Below, in pieces: positions 3,394-34,524 of a stretch of 64,000 nucleotides of DNA. The position numbers and the translations under genes are program-made. The stretch lies in contig NJPS01000022.1 in NCBI GenBank assembly GCA_002946415.1, forward strand, positions 868,001-932,000, written 5' to 3'. The notes under the pieces were generated by a model. The model was not told where the DNA came from and ran no database searches. It saw only the letters and a list, made by a program, of their open reading frames with translations. The first letter of the stretch is position 1. The number at the start of each line of letters is the position of its first letter. Source of the stretch: Rutstroemia sp. NJR-2017a BVV2. Taxonomy: Eukaryota; Ascomycota; Leotiomycetes; Helotiales; Rutstroemiaceae.

Positions 3394-6300
3394 ATGTGTG
3401 AGGAAACGTTAGCTGCTACCACTGCGATTTTGCAAGGCATCGCGACGACCAATCTCAACCTCTCACAGTCGCATAGTTATGGCAGCAAAGGCCTCAAACT
3501 TCCGGGGGCGGATACGGCAGAGAAGCTTGCACTTGAGCGAGAGATAGCGGCGTTGGTGTTGAGGGTTCAAAGACTGGAAACAAAAGCGATCACAGCCAAC
3601 AATCACACACTACCGGATACGCCAAACGAAATAGGAGCGCCGTCTGCTTTTGCAGATGTTCTCACTGGTGCTCCATCAAGATCCTCCAAGACGACTACAT
3701 CGTCAAGGCAGCAACTCGTAAATTCGTTACTCGCAGCTAGAGAAACGCCCACAGGAGGTGACAGGCCGCCCAAATTCACAAAACTGAGCGATGAAGAACT
3801 CGAGGCACTCCGAGAACATGTCGACCACCAGTCCAAACAGCTTGATAGCCAGGCCTCCGAGTTGGCTGGTGTTCATGCTCAACTGTTTGAACAGAAACAA
3901 AGACAGGAACAAGCACTCAATCTTCTGGAGGTCGAGCGTGTAGCAGCACTCGAACGAGAACTTAAAAAGCATCAGCAAGCCAACGAGGCTTTCCAGAAGG
4001 CGCTGCGAGAAATTGGAGAAATCGTTACTGCTGTCGCCAGAGGTGACCTCAGCAAAAAGGTGCAAATCCACTCCGTGGAGATGGACCCTGAAATTACAAC
4101 TTTCAAGCGGGTAAGAATTGCACATCGAAACGCTTTCAACAATTGTCTGATTTGTGTTTAGGTAATTAATACTATGATGGATCAACTTCAAATATTCTCC
4201 AGCGAAGTGTCCCGTGTGGCCAGAGAGGTCGGCACAGAAGGTATCCTTGGCGGGCAGGCAAGAATTTCAGGTGTTGATGGCACATGGAAGGAGTTGACTG
4301 ATAATGGTATGCTGACGATGCTCCTACCAGTATGAATATACCTGCTTACAATGTATAGTCAATATCATGGCACAGAATCTCACCGACCAAGTGAGAGAAA
4401 TCGCATCTGTTACCACAGCAGTAGCGCACGGAGACCTCACACAGAAAATCGAGAGACCTGCTCAAGGTGAAATACTCCAACTGCAGCAGACGATTAATAC
4501 CATGGTGGACCAACTACGATCGTTCGCCGCGGAAGTTACCCGAGTAGCAAGAGATGTCGGAACAGAAGGTATTCTTGGGGGACAAGCGGAGATCGAAGGT
4601 GTCCAGGGCATGTGGAACACTTTGATAGTCAACGTCAACGCTATGGCCAACAACCTTACTACACAAGTGCGCGACATAGCAATTGTTACGACAGCTGTGG
4701 CCAAGGGAGATCTTACCCAAAAGGTTCAGGCGGAGTGCAAGGGAGAAATCAAGCAGCTGAAGGAGACCATCAACTCCATGGTGGACCAATTGCAACAGTT
4801 CGCGCGAGAAGTCACAAAGATTGCTAGAGAGGTCGGCACCGAGGGAAGACTTGGAGGCCAGGCTACGGTACATGACGTTGAAGGCACATGGAGAGACCTA
4901 ACCGAAAATGTGAATGGTATGGCCATGAATCTTACGACACAAGTGCGAGAAATTGCCAAAGTTACCACTGCTGTGGCAAGAGGAGACTTGACGAAGAAGA
5001 TCGAAGTGGAAGTCAGGGGAGAGATTGCATCCTTGAAAGACACCATCAATACCATGGTTGACAGGCTCGGTACATTTGCCTTCGAGGTCAGCAAAGTCGC
5101 TAGAGAGGTCGGAACCGATGGAACCCTTGGTGGGCAAGCGCAAGTCGACAATGTGGAAGGAAAATGGAAGGATTTAACCGAGAACGTGAACACTATGGCT
5201 AGGAACTTGACCACTCAAGTGCGCGGAATCTCAACGGTTACGCAAGCCATTGCCAATGGTGACATGAGTCAAAAGATCGAAGTTGCAGCTGCGGGTGAAA
5301 TACTCGTATTGAAGGAGACAATAAATAATATGGTCGACAGATTGAGTATCTTCTCAAACGAGGTGCAAAGAGTCGCCAGAGATGTGGGTGTGGATGGTAA
5401 GATGGGAGGACAAGCTGACGTTGCTGGTATTGGGGGACGTTGGAAGGAGATTACAACTGGTATGCGACCTTTATAGATCTACCAACATGACGTTTGTCTA
5501 CGAGTATAAGCTAACCATTGCAGATGTCAACACTATGGCAAACAACTTGACGACCCAAGTGCGAGCTTTCGGTGATATCACAAACGCCGCAACTGATGGC
5601 GACTTCACGAAGCTGATCACAGTCGAAGCATCTGGTGAAATGGATGAACTGAAACGAAAGATCAACCAGATGGTTTACAACTTAAGGGATAGTATTCAGA
5701 GAAACACTTTGGCCAGAGAAGCTGCCGAGTTTGCCAACAGAACAAAGTCCGAGTTCTTGGCCAACATGTCTCACGAAATACGTACTCCGATGAATGGAAT
5801 CATAGGTATTGAGCTTCCCCTCCCTTCAACTCGTCAATCTATCTCGAATTCATACTGACCTGAATAGGCATGACTCAATTAACTCTGGATACGGAACTCA
5901 CTCAATACCAGCGCGAAATGCTCAACATTGTCCACAGTTTGGCTAACAGTCTATTGACCATCATAGACGATATTTTGGATTTGTCGAAGATTGAAGCCAA
6001 CCGTATGGTGATGGAGGAGATTCCATATACACTTCGAGGAACAGTCTTCAACGCCCTGAAGACCCTTGCTGTGAAAGCTAATGAGCGATTCCTGGATCTC
6101 ACCTATCGTGTTGACAGCTCGGTTCCTGACCACGTCGTTGGTGATTCATTCCGTCTCAGGCAAATTATCCTCAACTTGGTTGGAAATGCCATCAAATTCA
6201 CAGAGCATGGTGAAGTTTCTTTGACGATTCGGAAGGCCGAGCAAGACGATTGTGAACCCAACGAGTACGCGATCGAATTCTGCGTTTCGGACACTGGTAT

Positions 6301-7671
6301 TGGTATTCAAGCTGACAAACTCAACCTGATCTTCGATACTTTCCAACAAGCCGATGGATCTATGACGAGGAAGTTCGGTGGTACCGGTCTTGGTCTTTCC
6401 ATTTCCAAGAGACTCGTAAACCTCATGCGCGGAGATGTGTGGGTCAAGAGTCAATATGGAAAGGGTAGTTCCTTCTACTTTACTTGCACAGTTCGTCTTG
6501 CGACCTCGGACATCAGCTTTATCCAGAAGCAGCTCAAGCCGTACCAAGGTCACAATGTCCTCTTCATCGACAAAGGACACACAGGCCATGGCAAGGAGAT
6601 AATTAACATGCTCACCCAACTCGGTCTCGTTCCTGTAGTTGTCGATTCCGAACAACATACCAACCTGCTTGGCAACGGAAGAACCAAGGAGAGAATTGCA
6701 TCTACATATGATGTAATTGTCCTGGATTCTATCGAAACTGCTAGGAGCCTAAGATCCATTGACGAATTCAAGTACATTCCGATTGTCCTTCTGGCCCCTG
6801 TCGTCCACGTCAGTTTGAAGTCTGCTTTGGATCTTGGTATTACCTCTTACATGACAACACCATGCTTGACGATCGATCTCGGTAACGGCATGATTCCTGC
6901 TCTGGAAAACCGCGCCGCACCCTCTTTGGCTGATAATACCAAGTCATTTGATATCTTGCTGGCTGAAGACAACATCGTCAACCAACGCTTTGCTGTTAAG
7001 ATCTTGGAGAAATACCATCACGTTGTCACTGTTGTTGGAAACGGTCAAGAAGCCCTGGATGCTGTCAAGGAGAAGAAATACGACGTCATTCTTATGGACG
7101 TTCAAATGCCCATCATGGTAGGACTGGAGTAAACTAATATCTGAACAAAAGCTAATTCTATACTAGGGAGGATTTGAAGCAACGGCCAAAATCCGAGAAT
7201 ACGAACGCAGCCTTGGAACCCAAAGGACGCCCATTATCGCTCTTACGGCACATGCTATGCTTGGCGACCGAGAAAAATGTATACAAGCTCAGATGGACGA
7301 ATATCTCTCCAAACCTCTCAAGCAGAATCATCTGATTCAAACCATTCTGAAATGTGCAACACTTGGTGGAGCATTGTTGGAGAAAGGTAGAGAACGACAA
7401 AATCACGAGGAGAGTCCCAATTCCAAAAACGGCACTCAGACTCAGCATGCTGGATCAAGTCCAACTCAGACCCATTTGAGACCGCCCATCGAACCTCGCG
7501 CATACACAACAACAGGACCAATATCCCATGGAAGTTTGGAAAGCCCGTCAGTTGTGACATCAGAGGTTGAGGATCCGCTTTCAAGGGTAAGCAGTTGCTA
7601 GTTTACATTCCACCTTCCAAATCCCGTACTAAGCAATTGCGTAGCTTCTTATGCGTGCGCATAGCAGCTAA
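3394..7671 (+). CDS. nik1: Group III hybrid histidine kinase, HAMP-repeat osmosensor (Nik1/Os-1/Bos1 type)
   Basis: Cytosolic hybrid sensor kinase feeding the Ypd1 phosphorelay and the Hog1/Sak1 MAPK pathway. It is the known target-linked protein for dicarboximide, phenylpyrrole and related fungicides. Seven exons are inferred: 3394-4110, 4162-4306, 4359-5459, 5524-5805, 5868-7117, 7167-7586, 7645-7671, giving 1313 aa, close to the usual length of this family. Residues about 190-700 are tandem HAMP units with recurring VTTAVA..GDLT and VGTEG.LGGQA blocks. The phosphoacceptor His is residue 738 in [11 protein letters not shown]. ATPase boxes follow ([27 protein letters not shown]). The receiver domain has its phosphoacceptor Asp at residue 1159 in LMDVQMP and a SKPL lysine. 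The last exon codes only eight residues (LLMRAHSS), a conserved family ending that supports the final intron. No lesion is visible. Family identity is firm; the exact start is likely but not proven. Confidence 0.97.
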
Positions 7672-9809: not shown

Positions 9810-10838
9810 TTAGAGATCAATATCAGGTCCAAATCCAAAATCCACTGGTTCCTCCACAGCATTCATTCTCGTCCATTCATCAATAGCATCCATATTCTTA
9901 CAGATCTTCGTTTCCGGTAGTTGAGGCAACGGTATTTTAGCCACTGAATCCCACTGCCAAGACACAGGCGTCGTGTCGCCGTTGCAGAGCAGGGACTGGC
10001 GGATCCAGTCTAAACAGTGATCTGTGAAGTCGCGTTTTCGTCAGTCCAGTTTAAGTACTGATGTAAAGAAGGCGAGAGGGAGAAGAAGAACAGAGGAAAG
10101 GTAGAAGTAAACTAACCAAGATGTTTCGCCCCATGCCCAGTGTAATTTCTCCTCCCACCAGGTAAATAGAAGTCCTTGAAATGCGGTAAGCGATAGTGCT
10201 CAACTCCATCGAGCCAGAGCGCTTGTCGGATTGAATTGAGGCAATGTAGCTGGTGATAGATCTCCAGCTGGATAAGGTATTTTGACGGGTCTGATGGGAT
10301 GGGTAGGGTTTTAAGGGGGAGACGGTCGGCAAGCGAGGGAGGTATGGAGGTGTGCATGCTCTCTGGATGGGTTCTTAGCAAGAAAATCTTAGGAATGAGA
10401 GGAAAGAATGGGATTCCAAATACCATTGTAGAGCATCTGCCATTTATCATCAGTGGTATGGTCGGGGAGACCAGTTGCTGGGTTCGCCATGAAAGGATTG
10501 TGGTAATGGAGCGAGTTGGATTGTTGAACAGGAATATACTGTATGATTTCCTGTACCGGTGCTATTTGAACGTGGAGTTAATTGCCAGAAACCAGAATAG
10601 GTGACTGAATCGCTGGATACTGACTGTACATCTGAAGACTGCCGGCAGCAGACCTAGAATTTTGCTCAACTATCACTACGGTGAGTGCTCCAGCGAGAAC
10701 AGCGGCAGCGTAGAGACATGCGAGAAATATGATATGAAGGTAATAAGAGATCCTTCGTCCTTGGGTCCGTTTCTTGCTCCATGACTTCTCTTCATCGTTG
10801 GTGTCTTGGACGAGGTGGTAAGCAGCGTCGTCTTCCAT
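9810..10838 (-). CDS. UstYa-like DUF3328 protein, putative RiPP-modifying oxidase
   Basis: Members of the UstYa (DUF3328) family act in fungal ribosomal-peptide pathways (ustiloxin, asperipin, phomopsin and others), where they are implicated in oxidative side-chain cyclisation of the core peptide; a few act in other secondary pathways. Proposed exons: 10838-10593, 10538-10424, 10362-10117, 10021-9810, about 272 aa, a normal family length. An N-terminal membrane segment lies at about residues 33-55. Both hallmark HXXHC motifs are present: HQLHC at 157-161 and HLDHC at 201-205, the second formed across intron 3. The downstream DHCLDWIRQSLLCNGD block and the SWQWD stretch also match the family. 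Introns 2 and 3 have clean borders. Intron 1 (10539-10592) is assumed because the continuous frame carries a TAA at 10578-10580, and its donor GTTTCT is weak, so a disabling mutation is possible. The gene is divergent from the repeat precursor at 12376. Confidence 0.88.
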
Positions 10839-12220
10839 TTTGGTGGAAGATAGATGATTGAGCGAGAAGAAAACATCAATTGAGTGATATACAGAGAATG
10901 GAAACAGGAAAAGGCGAGTTCTTCGACCAGGAAAAGGGGGAGTCCTTCGAGGAGGCCGAAGTGGAAGGGTTGGTAGAGTGTGGAAAGTTGTCATGCAATA
11001 CTTCGCCGTCGTAAACCATCCCAGTAGAGAGCACGTTCACGCGGGCTGTCCATGAAGTCATTCGAATCTAGAGCCAAAATGGCAAATGGGGTGGTGTACA
11101 TACTTGAATAGCCTATCGTGCTGTCAGGGATGCTTTTTGACGATGGACTACTATTTTCTCACCGCGAAAAATAAGATGCCAAGACAACATCATAAACCGT
11201 GGCTTGACTTTACCCCAGACAATCAACTTCGCCGTTATAGTTCTTGAGCAAGTGGTGGCGATTGGGTTGTAAGCTCCGGGGCAGTGAAATAATGATACCA
11301 TTGTACTCGGTATGGCAAATCGTAGAATCAACATAAGCAAATAGAACAATGTCAACAACAATGACCTTCACGGGTAATGCAATACCAAATGACAGTCGGC
11401 ATAGAACTTTCGAGTGACTATGAAGTACACGGTGAGTTCAGTCCCGGGAACTTTGGATTAGGCCAGATAGAGTTCTCGCCCGTATGGAACCTCGCCCAAC
11501 GACGGAGGTCTATTTGCCAACAAGAACAGGCAGTCGACGAATAGGCAAGAGTCAACTGGGGGTGAAGACCGAAAAGGTCTAGTTCGCGTCACTGCATGTT
11601 GCATAATGGAGTGCTCCTTGCTCGATAGTTGGAAAGTGAAGGCTAGGGGATGATACGATTACACTATCACGAATAGTTAGGTAACAGCGAAGACCGCCTC
11701 CAATGCCGACTAGCTTGGTAAGCTTTAGCCAAAGTGTCACATTTGGGGGGAAGATTGGAACTCTCCGAGGACGATGTCTTGTTGGCCGTTGATTGACATC
11801 TCCAACACTCGGGCAATCACCGATCTGTCGTTTCATATCACATAGCATGGCTCGGGAAGTTGCCAAAGAAGTAGGCATCATTTCCACTTGGAGGTAGTAC
11901 TGCATCTCACCTCAGCACTTTGCAGAAGTTGTTAACTCATTGACTAGGTTTGGGCTTCGTTGTGATGCGGGATAATGAGGCGATACGACGGGTTGCCTCT
12001 CCTGGATGGGTACAGCCTATGTTATCAATATCACAATCACCTTGCACACGGGCACACTTATGCCATGCAGACGCAGGCAGCGTGATGATTGATCGTTATA
12101 TTGCATGGTGTTATGAGCATGATTGAAGATGTGATCAAGAAGATACTCATTTGCATGTAATGATTCGACAGAATCAACTATGAGACGAGCTGACAGTCTT
12201 CTGCTCACTGTCAGGGTTCC

Positions 12221-12234
12221 CCGCTCGAGCTCGG
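12221..12234. promoter_or_regulatory. CCG-N8-CGG motif, candidate Zn2Cys6 binding site
   Basis: CCG at 12221-12223 and CGG at 12232-12234 flank eight bases, about 20 bp upstream of the TATA element of the precursor gene. Fungal Zn2Cys6 regulators bind paired CGG/CCG triplets with fixed spacing. No Zn2Cys6 regulator gene is present in this window, so this is only a candidate and could be chance. Confidence 0.25.
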
Positions 12235-12253
12235 TTCACTTCATGAGAAGAGT

Positions 12254-12261
12254 TATATAAA
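12254..12261 (+). promoter_or_regulatory. TATA box of the repeat precursor gene
   Basis: TATATAAA lies about 120 bp upstream of the ATG at 12376, followed by a C/T- and A-rich leader and a favourable start context (ACACCATGA). Such a strong TATA element fits a highly expressed, regulated secreted-protein gene. Confidence 0.55.
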
Positions 12262-12375
12262 GACAGCCATTTCGCTCCTAAAGATATCCTCATCAGCCTC
12301 CTCTTTGCAGCATACTGAACACATTCTTACCAAATTATTTCTCAATCTCCCAAACTTCATTCAAACTCCAACACC

Positions 12376-13152
12376 ATGAAGGCCACATACGTCCTAGCAA
12401 CTATGGCTATGGCCAGCTTCACTGTTGCAGCACCCATTGCGTAAGAGTCCAGTCTGTGGTCGCTATGCACAATTATGCTAACGTTGGTGGGAATAGTTCC
12501 GCAGAAGCTGAAGCCGAAGCGTAAGTTCGATGTTATGGTCTATCATATGTTCCTGCTAAGCTTACATTACCAAAGTGCTCCTTGGGCGGACAAGCGTGAA
12601 GCAGAGGCGTGGCCAGAGGCTTGGGCAGATAAGAGATGGGATGAAAAGCGTGATGCAGCTCCCTGGGCTGATAAGAGATGGGCTGACAAACGCGATGCTG
12701 CTGCTTGGCCTGAAGCTTGGGCCGACAAGAGATGGGCTGACAAACGAGATGCGGCTCCTTGGGCCGACAAGAGATGGGATGAGAAGCGCGAAGCCGCCGC
12801 ATGGCCATGGGCAGACAAGAGATGGGCTGATAAACGCAATGCTGCTGCTTGGCCTGAAGCTTGGGCCGACAAGAGATGGGCTGATAAACGAGATGCGGCT
12901 CCTTGGGCCGACAAGAGATGGGCCGATAAACGCGATGCCGCTGCTTGGCCTGAAGCTTGGGCAGACAAACGCGATGCCGCTGCTTGGCCTGAGGCCTGGG
13001 CTGATAAGCGCGAAGCTTGGGCCGACAAGAGATGGGCAGACAAACGAGAGGCAGCTGCTTGGCCTGAAGCCTGGGCTGACAAGCGCGAAGCCTCCGCCTC
13101 GCCCGAAGCTTGGGCTGACAAGCGTGAGGCCGAACCCGAGATCCTAGCCTAA
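12376..13152 (+). CDS. Secreted Kex2-processed repeat precursor with Trp-rich cores; candidate RiPP precursor
   Basis: Three exons (12376-12440, 12497-12520, 12576-13152) encode 221 aa. Exon 1 is a secretion signal (MKATYVLATMAMASFTVAAP). The 24-nt exon 2 adds an Ala-Glu-rich spacer (SAEAEAE). Exon 3 contains 21 Lys-Arg sites, the Golgi Kex2 cleavage signal. Segments between sites fall into classes: WAD (six), WDE (two), DAAPWAD/APWAD (four), and the longer xAxAWPEAWAD form (seven, counting the divergent EASASPEAWAD) plus EAAAWPWAD and EAWAD. Every repeat carries Trp; there is no Cys and no Tyr in the array. The tail is EAEPEILA. N-terminal EA/DA/NA dipeptides after KR resemble Ste13-type trimming sites of alpha-factor precursors. 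The adjacent divergent DUF3328 gene makes a UstA-like RiPP precursor the leading idea. Alternatives are a peptide-signal precursor of the Kex2-processed repeat class or a structural secreted peptide. It lacks the Cys-containing WCxxxGQxC core of common ascomycete alpha-pheromones. Confidence 0.9.
12576..13131 (+). repeat. In-frame tandem repeat array of the precursor
   Basis: Units of 15, 27, 33 and 39 nt encode WADKR, DAAPWADKR, EAAAWPWADKR and DAAAWPEAWADKR forms in mixed order. Blocks such as the segments starting near 12700 and 12840 are nearly identical at the DNA level, including silent sites, which suggests recent duplication or gene conversion and probable copy-number variation between strains. 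Confidence 0.9.
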
Positions 13153-14270
13153 AGATTTTATATCTTAGCTTCTCCAAGTTGCATCGTACCCCCAAGAAGA
13201 TCGGTAATGAGAGCTTGGCCAGCAACACTGGACAGAAGAAGGAGTGCAATTGTGGGCTGGGAGGATTGACGTGTGGAAGAATGTCTTGCTTGATTTTTCC
13301 ATTCATTGATTGCAATAGCCATTTCTTTTCTTGGATATCGCGGATCTATAACTAAGTAGGAGAGAGTAGCATGTTAGTTAGCACAGTCCTTACCATATAA
13401 TACATTTGAATGGGAGCTCAAAGTATTGTTGTTGCTTTATGAAGTGAGCTGCAAGGTTGATATCTCGAACGAGTATTGTCCATAATGTGATACCGTAGTC
13501 GTATTCAAAGACATCGTAGCAATTGGGATTCTGCGCGCTTCACTGACGTTGGAATAGTATGCTAGGGAGAAGAAGCTTCTTCGGCTAAGTTCTGGATTTC
13601 TAGGAGATAAGCTGCGGGGACCGATCTGCAAACACACGTGAAGATGAATCTCTGCCGTTCATTGGCCGATGCCGTCCTCTGCAGAATTATTGGCATCAGG
13701 TAAAAGAGCTCGAAACATTCCGGCAAAACTCGAGTTATTGACCAGTGCAAGAATATTGTAGCATTCTCCAGCTGCGAAACTGTCTGCGCAAACTTTCTTC
13801 GTTGCTATTCACTTTCTTCTTCACCGGAAAGATGCAGTCCTCCAAGTGTGAGTTTCTGACTCGAGACGGTCGTCCCACAATTTCTTACTAGATCCACCAT
13901 CTTTCCTCTCATCGTCTTTCACATGCTCGAAAAATCCACGGCATCGTGCTCGAAACCATCCACTGTTACGGCCTTTATATCTTCGTGTGGCCCATTTATT
14001 CCACTCTTCGTTGCAATACTGCCGAGGAAGGAAGCAGAAAGAGTCCATTTTTGTAGCAGTTCTTCACTGTGCAGCAGGAAGATTTCGGCAATACAAGAAG
14101 ACGTCATTCATTAGCTGTGTCTCACGCCAGCCACAGTGCGTTTGAGCGAAGTTTTTTTTTCTTCTGTCTCTATTATTACATATCTAGGTAGTCTTACAGT
14201 CCACCTGCGACACAACCTACTTGGCTGGCCCATATAAGACCTCCCTTCTTCTTCTCGCAGCATCTCCATC
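13153..14270. other. Intergenic between precursor and acyltransferase genes
   Basis: This holds the precursor 3' flank and the promoter of the downstream gene, with a TATA-like TATAAG at 14233. Short frames here (for example 13821-14048 minus) show no recognisable motif. I see no further biosynthetic gene. Confidence 0.55.
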
Positions 14271-15911
14271 ATGGTGAACTTCTTCCCCTCCAAGGTGGCC
14301 GTCGCCCCCACCCCGCACGATGTCCTCGAAAGCCATCGCCGCACATTCGCAGCCCGCGTGTCCGAAGGCACAATGCGACCATTGGTTCTTCCCTACCATC
14401 TCTACGGTATCATCGCGCTAGAAATATATCTCTGCATACCGCACATAAATCGACCGTTATTATATAAAGCGAGATGGATTGTGTTGGCGGGGATTATATG
14501 GTTTGAGCTGAAAACGCTGTTTAATACCAGTAGCGAAAATATGGCAGTTGGTTTTGCGGCGGGGTTGTTCTGTACATTTAGCATTGTTACAAGTCTTAAC
14601 TGGCTGGTCTTTATGAAACCGCAATTTGAGGCGAAGAGGGTGGAGAGGAGGAAAGGCTGGAAGGGGTCAAAGGACACCGAGGAGGAGGCACATCAGAGTG
14701 AGAATTACAGAGTGGATGGGGAAGACTCGGAACTCAGACAACGTGGTCAGACGAATGGAAATGCGAGTAGGAGTGCCTCCAAGGATGACAAAGAAGGTGG
14801 TCAAGTAGCCCAGAAGGGGTCCAGTGAGGAAACCGAATACTACTGGCAATCCTACCCAGACAACATATGGGAAAGAATAGACTGGGTAGTCGACCTAGTG
14901 ACGAACTTTCGCGGTCCAGCATGGAACTGGCAAGTCCCAAACCTACCCGAACTCCCGCCATTCGTCAAATCTAAACTAGGAGAGCCCATCACCGAAGCTT
15001 CAAGACGCGATACGTCCTCCTCAGGAATCCGCCGCTTCAACACCCGATACGAGCTCTTCCGTGCACAAGTCCCCCGCTTCATCATCGGATACTTCCTCCT
15101 CGACATAACCAAAACCCTCATGATGAACGACCCCTACTTCTACCTCGGCCCCAACAACTACCCCGTTCCCTCGTACGTCGCCACCATGTCCCCCGTCTTC
15201 CGCTCCATCTACCGGCAGCTCCTCTCCATGACCGCGATCCTCACTTCCCTCGAAATGACCTTCCTCATCGCCCCCCTCATCATGTGTCTCCTCCTCGGGC
15301 CTTCCGTGCTCGGCCTCCGCGGCGAATCCTGGTACTACCCCACGACCTGGGGCTCTTTCTCTGTCATCCTAAACAAAGGTCTCGCCGGACTCTGGGGCAG
15401 CTGGTGGCACCAAATCTTCCGTCTTGTGTTCTCCTCTCCAACCACCTATCTCATCTCTCAGGGGTACCTGAACCCCAAATCCGTAACAACCAAACTCGTC
15501 GCCTCGCTCATCGCATTCGGCATCTCGGGGATTCTGCACTCAGGGGGAAGTCTCTCGCAGATCGCGCCCACGCGCCCTTGGCATCCGTTCCTGTTCTTCA
15601 TGCTGCAGGCGCTGGGGATTGTTATACAAATGGCTCTGGCGATGGCGTTTAAGGGCGTGATTAGGAAGGTGCCGAAGGGGGCGAGGCAGGCGACGAATGC
15701 GGCATATGCGTTGGGGTGGGGATTGTTGACCGGGTGGGTGCTGGCGGATGATTTTGCGAGGGGGGGGTTGTGGTTGTATGAGCCGATTCCGGTGTCGGTG
15801 TTGAGAGGCTTGGGGTATGGGTATGAGGGGGAGGGGTGGTGGTGTTGGGAGCATGTGGGGGTGGGCTGGTTTCGGGGGAGGGGGTGGTGGGATAGTGGGG
15901 TTGCGATTTAG
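14271..15911 (+). CDS. MBOAT/wax-synthase-like membrane acyltransferase
   Basis: A single-exon gene of 546 aa. Family members move acyl groups from acyl-CoA to hydroxyl acceptors; in fungi several wax-synthase-domain proteins are tailoring enzymes in secondary-metabolite clusters (Tri7-type). Several hydrophobic segments are visible, near residues 45-65, 70-85, 90-110, 270-285, 320-350 and 410-480. A hydrophilic, charged loop lies at about 125-190. The wax synthase core is the LWGSWWHQIFR block followed by GILHSGG, with the expected active-site His at 423. The C-terminus is Trp/Gly-rich. The gene lies 1.1 kb downstream of the repeat precursor on the same strand, so a role in acylating the peptide product is conceivable, but adjacency is the only evidence; it could also act on lipids or another metabolite. 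Confidence 0.85.
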   Translation: MVNFFPSKVAVAPTPHDVLESHRRTFAARVSEGTMRPLVLPYHLYGIIALEIYLCIPHINRPLLYKARWIVLAGIIWFELKTLFNTSSENMAVGFAAGLFCTFSIVTSLNWLVFMKPQFEAKRVERRKGWKGSKDTEEEAHQSENYRVDGEDSELRQRGQTNGNASRSASKDDKEGGQVAQKGSSEETEYYWQSYPDNIWERIDWVVDLVTNFRGPAWNWQVPNLPELPPFVKSKLGEPITEASRRDTSSSGIRRFNTRYELFRAQVPRFIIGYFLLDITKTLMMNDPYFYLGPNNYPVPSYVATMSPVFRSIYRQLLSMTAILTSLEMTFLIAPLIMCLLLGPSVLGLRGESWYYPTTWGSFSVILNKGLAGLWGSWWHQIFRLVFSSPTTYLISQGYLNPKSVTTKLVASLIAFGISGILHSGGSLSQIAPTRPWHPFLFFMLQALGIVIQMALAMAFKGVIRKVPKGARQATNAAYALGWGLLTGWVLADDFARGGLWLYEPIPVSVLRGLGYGYEGEGWWCWEHVGVGWFRGRGWWDSGVAI

Positions 15912-21199: not shown

Positions 21200-22330
21200 T
21201 TAATCTCTCAGTGCCAGAACAACAATGAGAATGTGAGAATCTCCCAATCCAAACCGGTTAATGGAACTATTAGAACCTCTCAGGACAAAAATAACACTCA
21301 ACGCAAAAACGGCAATGAAAGCATTACAATCTCTCAGTGCGAAAAGGACAACGAGACCATCACAATCTCTCAGCGCAAGAAGGACAATGAAATCATTCCA
21401 ATCTCTCGGTGCGAAAACAACACTCAATGCGAAAATGATAATGAAACCATGACGATCTCTCAAGGCAAGAATAGCAATGAAAATCTTCTAATCTCTCGGT
21501 GCAAGAAGAACAATTAAACCATTCCATTCACTGAGCACAAGAACAGCGATGAAAGTATTATAATCTCTCAGTGCAGTATAATCTCTCAGTGCAGTATAAT
21601 CTCTCAGTGCATTACAATCTCTCAGTGCAAGAACAGTAATGAAACCATTTCAATCTATCAGTGCGAAAACAACAATAAAAGCATTCCATTCACTTAGTAC
21701 AAGAACAGCAATGAACCTATTCCAATCTCTCAGTATATTACAATGTCTCAGTGCGAAAACGGCAATGAAAGCATTATAATCTCTCAGTGTATTACAATCT
21801 GTCAGTACAAAAACGGTAATGAAACCATTTCAATCTCTCAGCACAAGAACAACACTCAACGCAAAACCGACAATGAAAGCATTAGAATCTCTCAGTGCAA
21901 GAACGATAATCAAAGCATTACAATTTCTCGGTGCAGTACAGTCTCTCAATATAGTACAATCCCTCAATGTATCCCAATCACCCGGTACATCCCAATCTCT
22001 CTGTGCAGTACAATCTCTCAGGGTAGTTCAATCTCTCAGTGCAAAAACAACACTCAACACAAAACCGATAATCAAAGCATTACGATTTCTCAATACAGTA
22101 CAATCTCTCAGTACATCCCAGTCTCTCAATGCATTCCAATCTCTCGGTACATCCCAATCTCTCAGTACAGTACAATCTCTCAGGGTAGTTCAATCTCTCA
22201 GTATATTACAACCTTTCAGTGCATCCCAATCACTCAGTATATCCCAATCTGCTAGCACATCCCAATCTCTTAGTACATCCTAGTCTCTCAATATATCTCA
22301 ACCTCTCAATACAGTATAATCTCGCAGTGC
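21200..22330 (+). repeat. Degenerate minisatellite built on the motif CAATCTCTCAGTGC
   Basis: For about 1.1 kb the sequence repeats CAATCTCTCAGT(G/A)C-type units at 15-18 nt spacing (clearest at 21560-21620 and 22000-22210). In the first half these units are separated by AACAATGAAA/AACAACACTCAA-type spacers that form longer units of about 35-40 nt. Because the spacing is often a multiple of three, more than one frame stays open (21233-21517, 21743-22255, 21819-22283), giving Ile-Ser-Gln or Gln-Ser-Leu repeats. I treat these frames as by-products. Confidence 0.85.
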
Positions 22331-32748: not shown

Positions 32749-34524
32749 CTACCACCCCTCCACAACCCTCACCTTAACATGCAACCCCTTCGCCGGTCTC
32801 GCTGTGACACCCCCCTTAATAACCAAATTCCTCTCATCCAGCAACTTCCCATCCTGTAACTCAAACGCAAGTCTCCCGACCCATGCCGCCAACAAGCACG
32901 CAAACTCCGCCTTCGCAAACGCCTGCCCGATACAACTTCTCGGGCCGTGCAAGAAAGTAAGAAACGCGTAATTGCTCGACGCTCCTCCGCTCGTGCTGCG
33001 CGCGTCCCCATCCCTCGGCATCCAGCGATCGGGATTGAATTTGCGCGCGTCCGGCCCCCACAGCGCTTCGTCTTTGTTGGTGGCCCAGGGGACGATCAGC
33101 ACTTTGGTGCCTTTGGGGATGCGGTGCCCGACCAGGGTAGTGTCGACGGCGGCTTCGCGGAGGGTGAGGGGAACGGGGGAGAAGTAGCGGAGGACTTCAT
33201 TGCAGACGGCGTTGAGGTAGGGCATGTGGTCGATGTCTTGGCTTGTGACGGTGGCGGTGGAGTCGGGGCTGGGTAGTCTGGAGCGCACTTCCTCTCGGAG
33301 ACGAGACTGGACTTCGGGGTGGACGCAGAGTAGATAAATGGCCCATGTCATGGCGCTGGCGGTTGTTTCGTGTCCGGCGGCGAGGAAGGTCATGAGTTGG
33401 TCGATGAGATTTTCGTCGGAGAAACCACCACTTTCGAGAGCAACGCTGAGAATATCCACGTCGTTCAGTTCTTTCTTTGCTAGCTTTTGTTTCTTCTGGT
33501 TGATAAGTTGCCTGCACGTTGATCGGATGACCGCGGCAGCTGCCTCGATCTCACCATTTCGCTTGACAGGTATTCTCGAGACGAACCAGCCGGGCAAGAA
33601 GGTATTCAGAAATCCTAGCAACTGAGCAATAGGTGAGGGCTTGAAGACGCTTCGGTAAGTGCGATTGAGTACGGTATTTGGATCCTGGATGGCTCCGAAG
33701 TTTTGACCAAGACCAGCTGTTCCGATAATGTCCAAGGTGGCTCTACTTGCCCACTCCATTGCTTCCATATACGCGACGCCTTTTTCTGCCACCGGAACTG
33801 GCAGTGGCTCATCCGCATCCTCGCTCTTATCCACAAATGGCTCACTAGGAATTTCGCCTCTTTCTTTCGCCTTGACTTCTACGGTCATAGCTTGAATTGC
33901 TTCGCAAGACTTGCTCCAAAACACGGCATATAAGTCCTTGACGTGTCGAAAGGCAAATGCAGGCATTAAGTTCTTCCTCTGAATTTTGTGTTCATCTCCT
34001 TCGGCCAACAAGACACCGATTCCAAGAAGTCTCCCTAAGCCGATCCGGACGGTTGTAGGCTTAATGAAGTCATAGTTTTTCGTGGTAAGAACCTCGCTGA
34101 GCGCTTTCGCATTGGTGACGAGGATTTTCTCCTGGTTTAGGAGACTCAGGTACCTTATAATGCCATCGTTGGGAACCTCATGTACCCTTTGGACGGTTAG
34201 TTTGGAGAGCATATATGAGGGGCGATTTTATATTTACCAGTCAAGCATTGGTGCTCCTGTTGGTTCTTTAGCGATCCTCCCAAATTGTCCATTCCACCAA
34301 CTACCACCCTTCGGACTGGGTAAATGTCTCAATGGCGAGAAGTATTTTGGATATAGGAACACACTCCAGATTGCAAAGGCCAAGAACTGGAGTAACCATA
34401 ATTGCACCCATGTCCCCACGTAAGTTGGCCGAGAGAACAGCAGCAGATCAGGGCGGTGCTGAACCAGTATGTAAGAAAGGGTCGTTGGCAGTACCAGGAA
34501 TTCTCTGAAAGGTATAGACGACAT
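32749..34524 (-). CDS. Cytochrome P450 monooxygenase
   Basis: Two exons, 34524-34238 and 34186-32749, joined over a 51-nt intron, give 574 aa. The N-terminal hydrophobic segment (about residues 38-60) is an ER membrane anchor, followed by a Pro-rich hinge (SPLRHLPSPKGG). Diagnostic P450 features are the I-helix oxygen-binding motif AGHETT, the K-helix EVLR, the FNPDRW region, and the haem loop FLHGPRSCIG with the thiolate ligand at Cys514. The IRYLSLLNQEKILVTN and KNLMPAFAFRHVKDLY blocks are typical of a broad fungal P450 group often annotated as CYP4-like or benzoate-hydroxylase-like. Substrate is unknown. No biosynthetic neighbour is recognised; the ORF at 34763 is divergent from it by about 240 bp. 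The start at 34524 is preferred over an ATG at 34653 because it begins at the usual distance from the anchor. Confidence 0.93.

Follow-up and report, generated by a model that had tools for sequence, protein, structure and literature searches.

Among the closest described systems are the dikaritin-type RiPPs, for which a UstYa/DUF3328 gene in the vicinity is given as the defining feature (PMC12048977). DUF3328 proteins have been described as dicopper enzymes acting by the cross-linking of side chains (PMC12186524), and UstYa proteins also act in non-RiPP pathways (PMC12048977). The cross-linked residue is Tyr in ustiloxin, phomopsin and asperipin-2a (PMC7329392). As victorin, which is counted among the dikaritins (PMC9769878), is cyclised at Phe (PMC9233826), we did not treat a core Tyr as defining the class. 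Kex2-processed repeat precursors (KEPs) were defined by Umemura as having a signal peptide and at least three repeats of at least 8 aa between Kex2 sites, and that 2020 survey counted 1,758 precursor genes that have a DUF3328 gene no more than 15 genes away, DUF3328 genes being commonest at the position next to the KEP gene (PMC7329392). In Sclerotinia, four pairs of adjacent DUF3328 genes have been reported, along with one candidate RiPP cluster (PMC6941272).

The locus described here lies in a window of 64,000 nucleotides (the whole stretch of DNA analysed) from a genome taken as that of Rutstroemia sp. NJR-2017a BVV2 and is plausibly a further case of this known class of fungal peptide pathway. 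An earlier note had presented it as a candidate new fungal RiPP locus; a new type of locus is overstated given the number of KEP–DUF3328 pairs already published. The note's remark that it knew of no described pathway with these repeats is supported: a PMC literature search with the repeat strings gave 8 papers, of which none was fungal by title. The features of the locus are as follows.

5864..7132, forward strand: left neighbour, kinase/receiver part of a hybrid histidine kinase gene (Pfam HisKA, HATPase_c and Response_reg on 5864-7129)
9810..10838, reverse strand: UstYa/DUF3328 gene, four exons, 269 aa (translation, Pfam and alignment)
10838-10625, 10561-10424, 10362-10117, 10021-9810, reverse strand: UstYa exons
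10839..12375: divergent intergenic region common to both genes, 1,537 bp, putative promoter region
12376..13152, forward strand: KEP gene, 221 aa (spliced translation)
12376-12440, 12497-12520, 12576-13152, forward strand: the three precursor exons (translation)
12376..12440, forward strand: putative signal-peptide exon (MKATYVLATMAMASFTVAAPI...; translation, hydropathy and inspection)
12576..13152, forward strand: repeat exon, 21 segments, each with W-A-D or W-D-E followed by KR
14271..15911, forward strand: MBOAT_2 (PF13813) gene, single exon, 546 aa (translation and Pfam)

The precursor gene has introns of 56 and 55 nt, and its product begins with a putative signal peptide, hydrophobic as judged only by inspection and Kyte–Doolittle hydropathy. 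Exactly 21 KR sites are present in the spliced translation, in agreement with the earlier count of Kex2 sites. The segments end in W-A-D (19/21) or W-D-E (2/21), and seven of those between KR sites are 11 aa long and one is 9 aa long, i.e. at least the three repeats of at least 8 aa by which KEPs are recognised. Tyr is absent from the repeat part (the sole Tyr of the protein is residue 5) and every segment ends in W-X-D/E, consistent with the earlier description of the cores as Trp-based rather than Tyr-based. Across the 21 W[AD][DE]KR units, mean entropy was 0.19, 0.09 and 1.08 bits at codon positions 1, 2 and 3; the low values at positions 1 and 2 indicate a constrained protein sequence, which ruled out chance repeat DNA as the source of the precursor. 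A paralogous precursor was also rejected, because both matches in the genome at E up to 10 were this gene's own exons (4 candidates scored), and no homologue was found in the protein database at E up to 1e-3 (7,994 candidates scored). This database search gave no copy of the precursor either, and the gene seems to be unannotated, unlike those of the catalogued KEP–DUF3328 pairs, which came from surveys described as scanning annotated proteins (PMC7329392). This suggests that surveys starting from annotated proteins miss such precursors, and published pair counts may be too low.

The earlier note had listed WAD, APWAD and AAWPEAWAD as cores, but the precursor is better read as carrying a single core, W-X-D/E, preceded by spacers that Ste13 can remove. 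Of the 20 later Kex2 segments, 8 lack a spacer; in the others X-A or X-P makes up 38/38 spacer dipeptides, a register reached by 0 of 100,000 within-spacer shuffles, although this count is not a true probability because spacer copies duplicate each other. When the 8 distinct spacers were each used once, the register was 26/26 and no shuffle reached it. Dipeptides of the X-A/X-P kind are the Ste13 trimming code. In the C-terminal tail EAEPEILA, which lies outside the count, the register is broken at EI and LA fits again. Segments that all end in W-X-D/E and spacers of X-A/X-P seem to distinguish this precursor from those of the catalogued KEP–DUF3328 pairs.

Ascomycete alpha-pheromone precursors have the same Kex2 and Ste13 X-A/X-P architecture, which, together with the signal-like N-terminus, would fit a mating alpha-pheromone or a peptide derived from it. 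However, WCGRPGQPC, the alpha-pheromone repeat in 31/36 Sclerotiniaceae (PMC10569646), is encoded elsewhere in the genome, with 10 copies at C55:295612-296535. The W-X-D/E core is unrelated to it, the precursor has no Cys and its repeats have no GQ or PG, and pheromone genes as a rule are reported without UstYa neighbours (PMC7329392). We therefore rejected this identity as extremely improbable. The Ste13 code could instead belong to a precursor whose Trp peptides stay linear and unmodified, serving as a secreted signal or at the surface as the products of other KEPs do, with the UstYa gene adjacent by coincidence or acting on another target. Precursors of linear alpha-pheromones typically show a perfect Ste13 register such as that of the 20 later segments (PMC10569646, PMC9769878). 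Similarly, the -AADW KEPs of mushrooms (Agaricomycetes) give short acidic Trp peptides behind Ste13 spacers, e.g. SGVAADW, which by LC-MS are linear or minimally modified, but these are from Basidiomycota and have a C-terminal Trp, unlike the peptides predicted here (PMC9769878). Among KEPs with DUF3328 neighbours, which resemble this locus in having a secreted Kex2-repeat precursor with UstYa next to it, W content (20.5%) does not exceed that of KEPs without such neighbours (24.5%; PMC7329392), which is also in favour of linear peptides. The lack of Tyr in the repeats also favours linear peptides.

The UstYa protein encoded by the neighbouring gene is complete: its match to Pfam UstYa (131.2 bits, E 6.8e-38) covers positions 3-218 of the 220-position profile, and it carries HQLHC and HLDHC, the latter spanning an intron in the gene. 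Both HXXHC motifs are expected in UstYa proteins. H158, H161, C162 and H202 (P0002 numbering) were invariant across 18 aligned UstYa rows, and H205 and C206 were present in at least 90% of them, the exception being P0001, a database model of the same gene. The protein search gave 26 matches among 496 candidates, and relatives with >41% identity were limited to Rutstroemia, Monilinia laxa, Cirrosporium and metagenome proteins; the M. laxa relative (EYC80_006078) aligned end to end with 59-60% identity. Searches of solved structures gave no credible match (best E 0.42 and 0.083). In a weak AlphaFold model of the M. laxa relative (mean pLDDT 70.6, pTM 0.56), the HXXHC motifs are on predicted helices 155-170 and 198-217.

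The layout matched the earlier description of a DUF3328 protein with both motifs, divergent from the precursor: the two start codons are 1,537 bp apart, and a complete enzyme encoded by the adjoining gene gives the known minimal arrangement of precursor plus UstYa. The locus has two dikaritin-type features, UstYa as the next gene and both HXXHC motifs, and lacks the core Tyr of ustiloxin, phomopsin and asperipin-2a. The closest UstYa match has its edge 2,069 bp from the start of the precursor. Since regions no more than 2.5 kb from any UstYa match make up just 0.52% of the genome, this adjacency is unlikely by chance, contrary to a coincidental neighbour of a linear-peptide gene. Furthermore, KEPs were present at 4 of 10 UstYa loci examined (29 loci in the genome), and in every case a divergent UstYa lies no more than about 2 kb away. 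This count leaves out an Arg-rich frame (L029:6769-7089) and the alpha-pheromone gene on C55, which is 10.4 kb from UstYa matches; the block-shuffle control of the scan (0, 0, 0) is a weak one, as no tandem repeat survives shuffling. At the three other pairs, all Tyr-bearing, the divergent UstYa match and the repeat frame downstream of it are 1,331-1,398 bp apart, compared with 2,138 bp by the same measure at our locus, which has the only Tyr-free KEP of the four. The recurrence of this layout argues against linear peptides, as does the report that a DUF3328 neighbour is missing from all 227 KEPs of yeast type (100%) and from 98.6% of the 216 of fungal pheromone type (PMC7329392). On balance, we regard a linear product as possible but doubtful.

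A dikaritin-like peptide pathway of two genes, located between conserved genes, is in our view the rather probable explanation, favoured by the complete UstYa, its adjacency, the recurring KEP–UstYa pairs and the Ste13-coded spacers. The precursor would enter the secretory pathway, where Kex2 would cut after KR, Kex1 would take off KR and Ste13 would strip the X-A/X-P dipeptides; most of what remains would be W-A-D, or APWAD and WPEAWAD where trimming is partial. The Trp core would then be oxidised by membrane-bound UstYa, whose most likely action is to link or dehydrogenate side chains, perhaps through an i-to-i+2 link like that in the Y-X-I of ustiloxin, and the product would be secreted with no part played by MBOAT. 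In favour of this explanation, other parts of the genome code for a Kex2-type P-domain and a DPP-IV-type peptidase. Evidence against a two-gene pathway is the Tyr-free repeat part, a Ste13 code common to linear alpha-pheromones, the failure to find a precursor homologue in the protein database, the part that UstYa proteins also play in non-RiPP pathways, and a window with no tyrosinase match and, in the 40 of its proteins and ORFs that were scanned, no domain of a transporter or peptidase.

Asperipin-2a also has one precursor and one UstYa-type enzyme, but its cores are of Tyr/Phe (PMC12186524) rather than Trp, and no reductase or transporter was recognised beside our pair. Ustiloxin and phomopsin share the Kex2 repeats and an aromatic residue that precedes its putative partner by two positions (Y-X-I versus W-X-D/E), whereas the triad here has neither Tyr nor Ile and no tyrosinase nearby in the window. 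The precursor and UstYa might be part of a larger scattered pathway, with tyrosinase, peptidase and transporter elsewhere, and indeed all 23 exon-level tyrosinase domain matches were outside the window. Nevertheless, just one DUF3328 protein is reported for asperipin-2a (PMC7329392) and nothing was found that ties distant genes to the pair, making a scattered pathway quite improbable.

With two genes and a Tyr-free precursor, the locus is a compact case for asking whether UstYa-type copper oxidases act on Trp. A three-residue ring is conceivable, albeit unlikely, in which UstYa would join the side chain of Trp to the beta-carbon of the Asp or Glu two residues on, with the same spacing as the Y-I link in the Y-X-I of ustiloxin; the Ste13-coded spacers would erase themselves after Kex2 cutting, so that a dedicated peptidase would be unneeded. 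Three-residue cyclophanes are known from bacteria. If the ring is real, this UstYa would be a Trp-acting enzyme, of which none was recognised in the PMC literature searched, and a fungal counterpart of the bacterial systems.

The MBOAT gene follows the precursor as previously described, 1,118 bp downstream, and this proximity would suit a three-gene cluster in which MBOAT acylates the peptide. However, its sequence relatives numbered 135 among 7,993 candidates scored, and the best 120 of the 135 were spread across Leotiomycetes, including Blumeria, Erysiphe, Golovinomyces and Podosphaera. These four genera are powdery mildews. In contrast to the few UstYa relatives with >41% identity, such close relatives throughout Leotiomycetes indicate that MBOAT, as judged by sequence search, is probably a conserved neighbour outside the pathway. 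We therefore rejected it as a cluster member, the role proposed earlier, and consider a three-gene cluster very improbable. In agreement, the MBOAT relative in Sclerotinia is SS1G_12696 and the histidine kinase shk1 is SS1G_12694, a numbering that suggests a conserved flank.

The precursor gene contains two short GT-AG introns (56 and 55 nt), and its spliced product has 221 aa and 21 KR sites. As the earlier note had observed, it is divergent from a UstYa (DUF3328) gene, whose product is complete at 269 aa; the two start codons are 1,537 bp apart, and the UstYa match and the repeat frame 2,138 bp apart edge to edge.

Features of the window
9810-10838, minus strand: UstYa gene
12376-13152, plus strand: precursor gene (Kex2-processed repeat precursor, KEP)
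14271-15911, plus strand: MBOAT_2 gene
32749-34227: cytochrome P450 gene (Pfam scan)

Codon variation in the 21 W[AD][DE]KR units was almost confined to third positions (mean entropy 0.19, 0.09 and 1.08 bits at codon positions 1, 2 and 3), and therefore the array is constrained as protein. The repeats are indeed Trp-based rather than Tyr-based: all 21 segments end in W-A-D (19) or W-D-E (two), and the sole Tyr of the precursor is residue 5, with no Cys or His. Each of the 20 later segments has an even number of residues ahead of the W-X-D/E triad (none in eight of them), and all 38 spacer dipeptides are X-A or X-P. Two parts were not counted: the first segment, which begins wherever the signal is cleaved, and the EAEPEILA tail, in which a single dipeptide, EI, departs from the pattern. 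No within-spacer shuffle reached 38 (0/100,000; mean 23.5, best 33) and, with the eight distinct spacers each used once, none reached 26 (0/100,000; mean 15.5, best 24), these counts not being true probabilities because the repeat copies are related. Runs of X-A/X-P after a Kex2 site are described as a mark of Ste13 (PMC10569646, PMC9769878), and the same genome encodes a Kex2-type P-domain and a DPP-IV-type peptidase.

A genome search gave no further precursor copy, both matches being exons of the same gene. The protein-database search (7,994 candidates scored) returned no relatives at E <= 1e-3 and not even the precursor's own copy, so the precursor appears to be unannotated. Since the Umemura 2020 survey is described as starting from annotated proteins (PMC7329392), a survey of this type would miss it. 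The earlier note knew of no described pathway with these repeats; in agreement with this, the repeat strings gave eight papers in the PMC open-licence literature (without supplementary files), none of them fungal judging by title.

The UstYa model has four exons (Pfam UstYa, 131.2 bits), and its splice sites are supported by end-to-end alignment with a Monilinia laxa protein (59-60% identity). In the database model of this gene (P0001, 196 aa), the N-terminus with its helix is missing, as is DHC of the second HXXHC motif; the annotation thus hides the complete enzyme, which was obtained by a different splice choice. Relatives numbered 26 among 496 candidates and included proteins of two Rutstroemia strains, M. 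laxa and Cirrosporium (43%). Metagenome relatives reached 89% over part of the length, and the remainder 27-41%. None of the named relatives is from Botrytis or Sclerotinia, some of the 26 being nameless.

Genome-wide, 79 exon-level UstYa matches were grouped by us into 29 loci, after dropping two C74 duplicates. KEPs were sought at the window and nine further UstYa loci (20 stretches of 10 kb) and were present at 4 of these 10, a count that gives no estimate of KEPs without UstYa because only the surroundings of UstYa genes were scanned.

KEPs at UstYa loci
C15, window: repeats without Tyr
C34:1023497: repeat AYVHGSYGYDKR, Tyr present; overlooked by a stricter scan
C54:262612: repeat NRYATAKR, Tyr present
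C59:45880: repeat GTDADAANKVYKR, Tyr present

At C34, C54 and C59, the repeat frame has an opposite-strand UstYa match upstream, at distances of 1,387, 1,398 and 1,331 bp. In all, 0.52% of the genome is no farther than 2.5 kb from a UstYa match. Additional UstYa matches occur on the other side of the KEP at C34 and C59, the one at C59 being nearer (543 bp) and convergent. In stretch coordinates, these three Tyr-bearing pairs are at L024:1998-2375, L029:1613-1963 and L038:881-1138.

The earlier note proposed a new RiPP locus. The pair itself stands, but the class is not new: a precursor with an adjacent UstYa gene is a published class, the survey reporting a DUF3328 gene within 15 genes of 1,758/7,878 KEPs, most commonly as the next gene (PMC7329392). 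Trp alone argues neither way, since W content is given there as 20.5% in KEPs with a DUF3328 neighbour and 24.5% in others. The precursor could instead yield linear peptides; we consider this rather unlikely, because pheromone-type KEPs are reported almost never to have a DUF3328 neighbour (PMC7329392). Given this and the published class, we favour, with some confidence, a two-gene dikaritin-like pathway, and the candidate pair is probably functional. UstYa-type enzymes are described as using a dicopper site to cross-link side chains (PMC12186524), and other roles given for them are hydroxylation, chlorination and participation in non-RiPP pathways (PMC12048977). Ustiloxin and phomopsin carry a Y-X-I link (PMC7329392), the spacing of which is shared by the W-X-D/E triad; as a guess, an i-to-i+2 link might form on the Trp of the triad.

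The genome also has a WCGRPGQPC alpha-pheromone gene with 10 exact copies of that repeat (C55:295612-296535; stretches L011-L018), with UstYa matches ∼10.4 kb away (C55:284529-285248). In strain BBW, a UstYa gene is reported two genes from the pheromone gene (Umemura 2020, PMC7329392).

An MBOAT acyltransferase does follow the precursor, but the proposed cluster role was not upheld. MBOAT_2 (PF13813) had 135 relatives among 7,993 scored candidates, and the best 120 of these were mostly from species that we take, from organism names, to be Leotiomycetes, powdery mildews included, with weaker relatives in Colletotrichum and others. The left neighbour of the precursor-UstYa pair is a hybrid histidine kinase. 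Since the Sclerotinia MBOAT_2 relative is SS1G_12696 and the histidine kinase shk1 is SS1G_12694 (PMC7168625), we infer that the pair sits between two probably conserved flanking genes, the kinase and MBOAT; for SS1G_12695, the PMC open-licence literature gave no paper. Among 40 window proteins/ORFs, Pfam domains were P450 (32.7-34.2 kb), phosphatase, HLH, 14-3-3, RRM, LAA2, kinase and Myb-like. Matches to tyrosinase, transporter or peptidase domains were absent, though short-exon genes could escape, and 27/30 ORFs of follow-up scans had no match. All tyrosinase domains of the genome lie outside the window, and no link to the pair was found for the P450 gene, ∼20 kb away.

An 18/36-bp minisatellite of ∼1 kb (CAATCTCTCAGTACATCC type) occupies 21306-22328, and the frame across it (21698-22252) has no Pfam match. 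The source is Rutstroemia sp. NJR-2017a BVV2 (Helotiales, Rutstroemiaceae; taxid 2070413), and a database protein of that name matches part of the window's UstYa at 98% identity. The 43.4-Mb genome comprises 79 contigs, the window being C15:868001-932000. On C74, one UstYa and one DPP-IV match of C25 recur at identical coordinates, and three UstYa matches from C50 reappear on the opposite strand, which suggests that some contigs of the assembly are redundant or joined.
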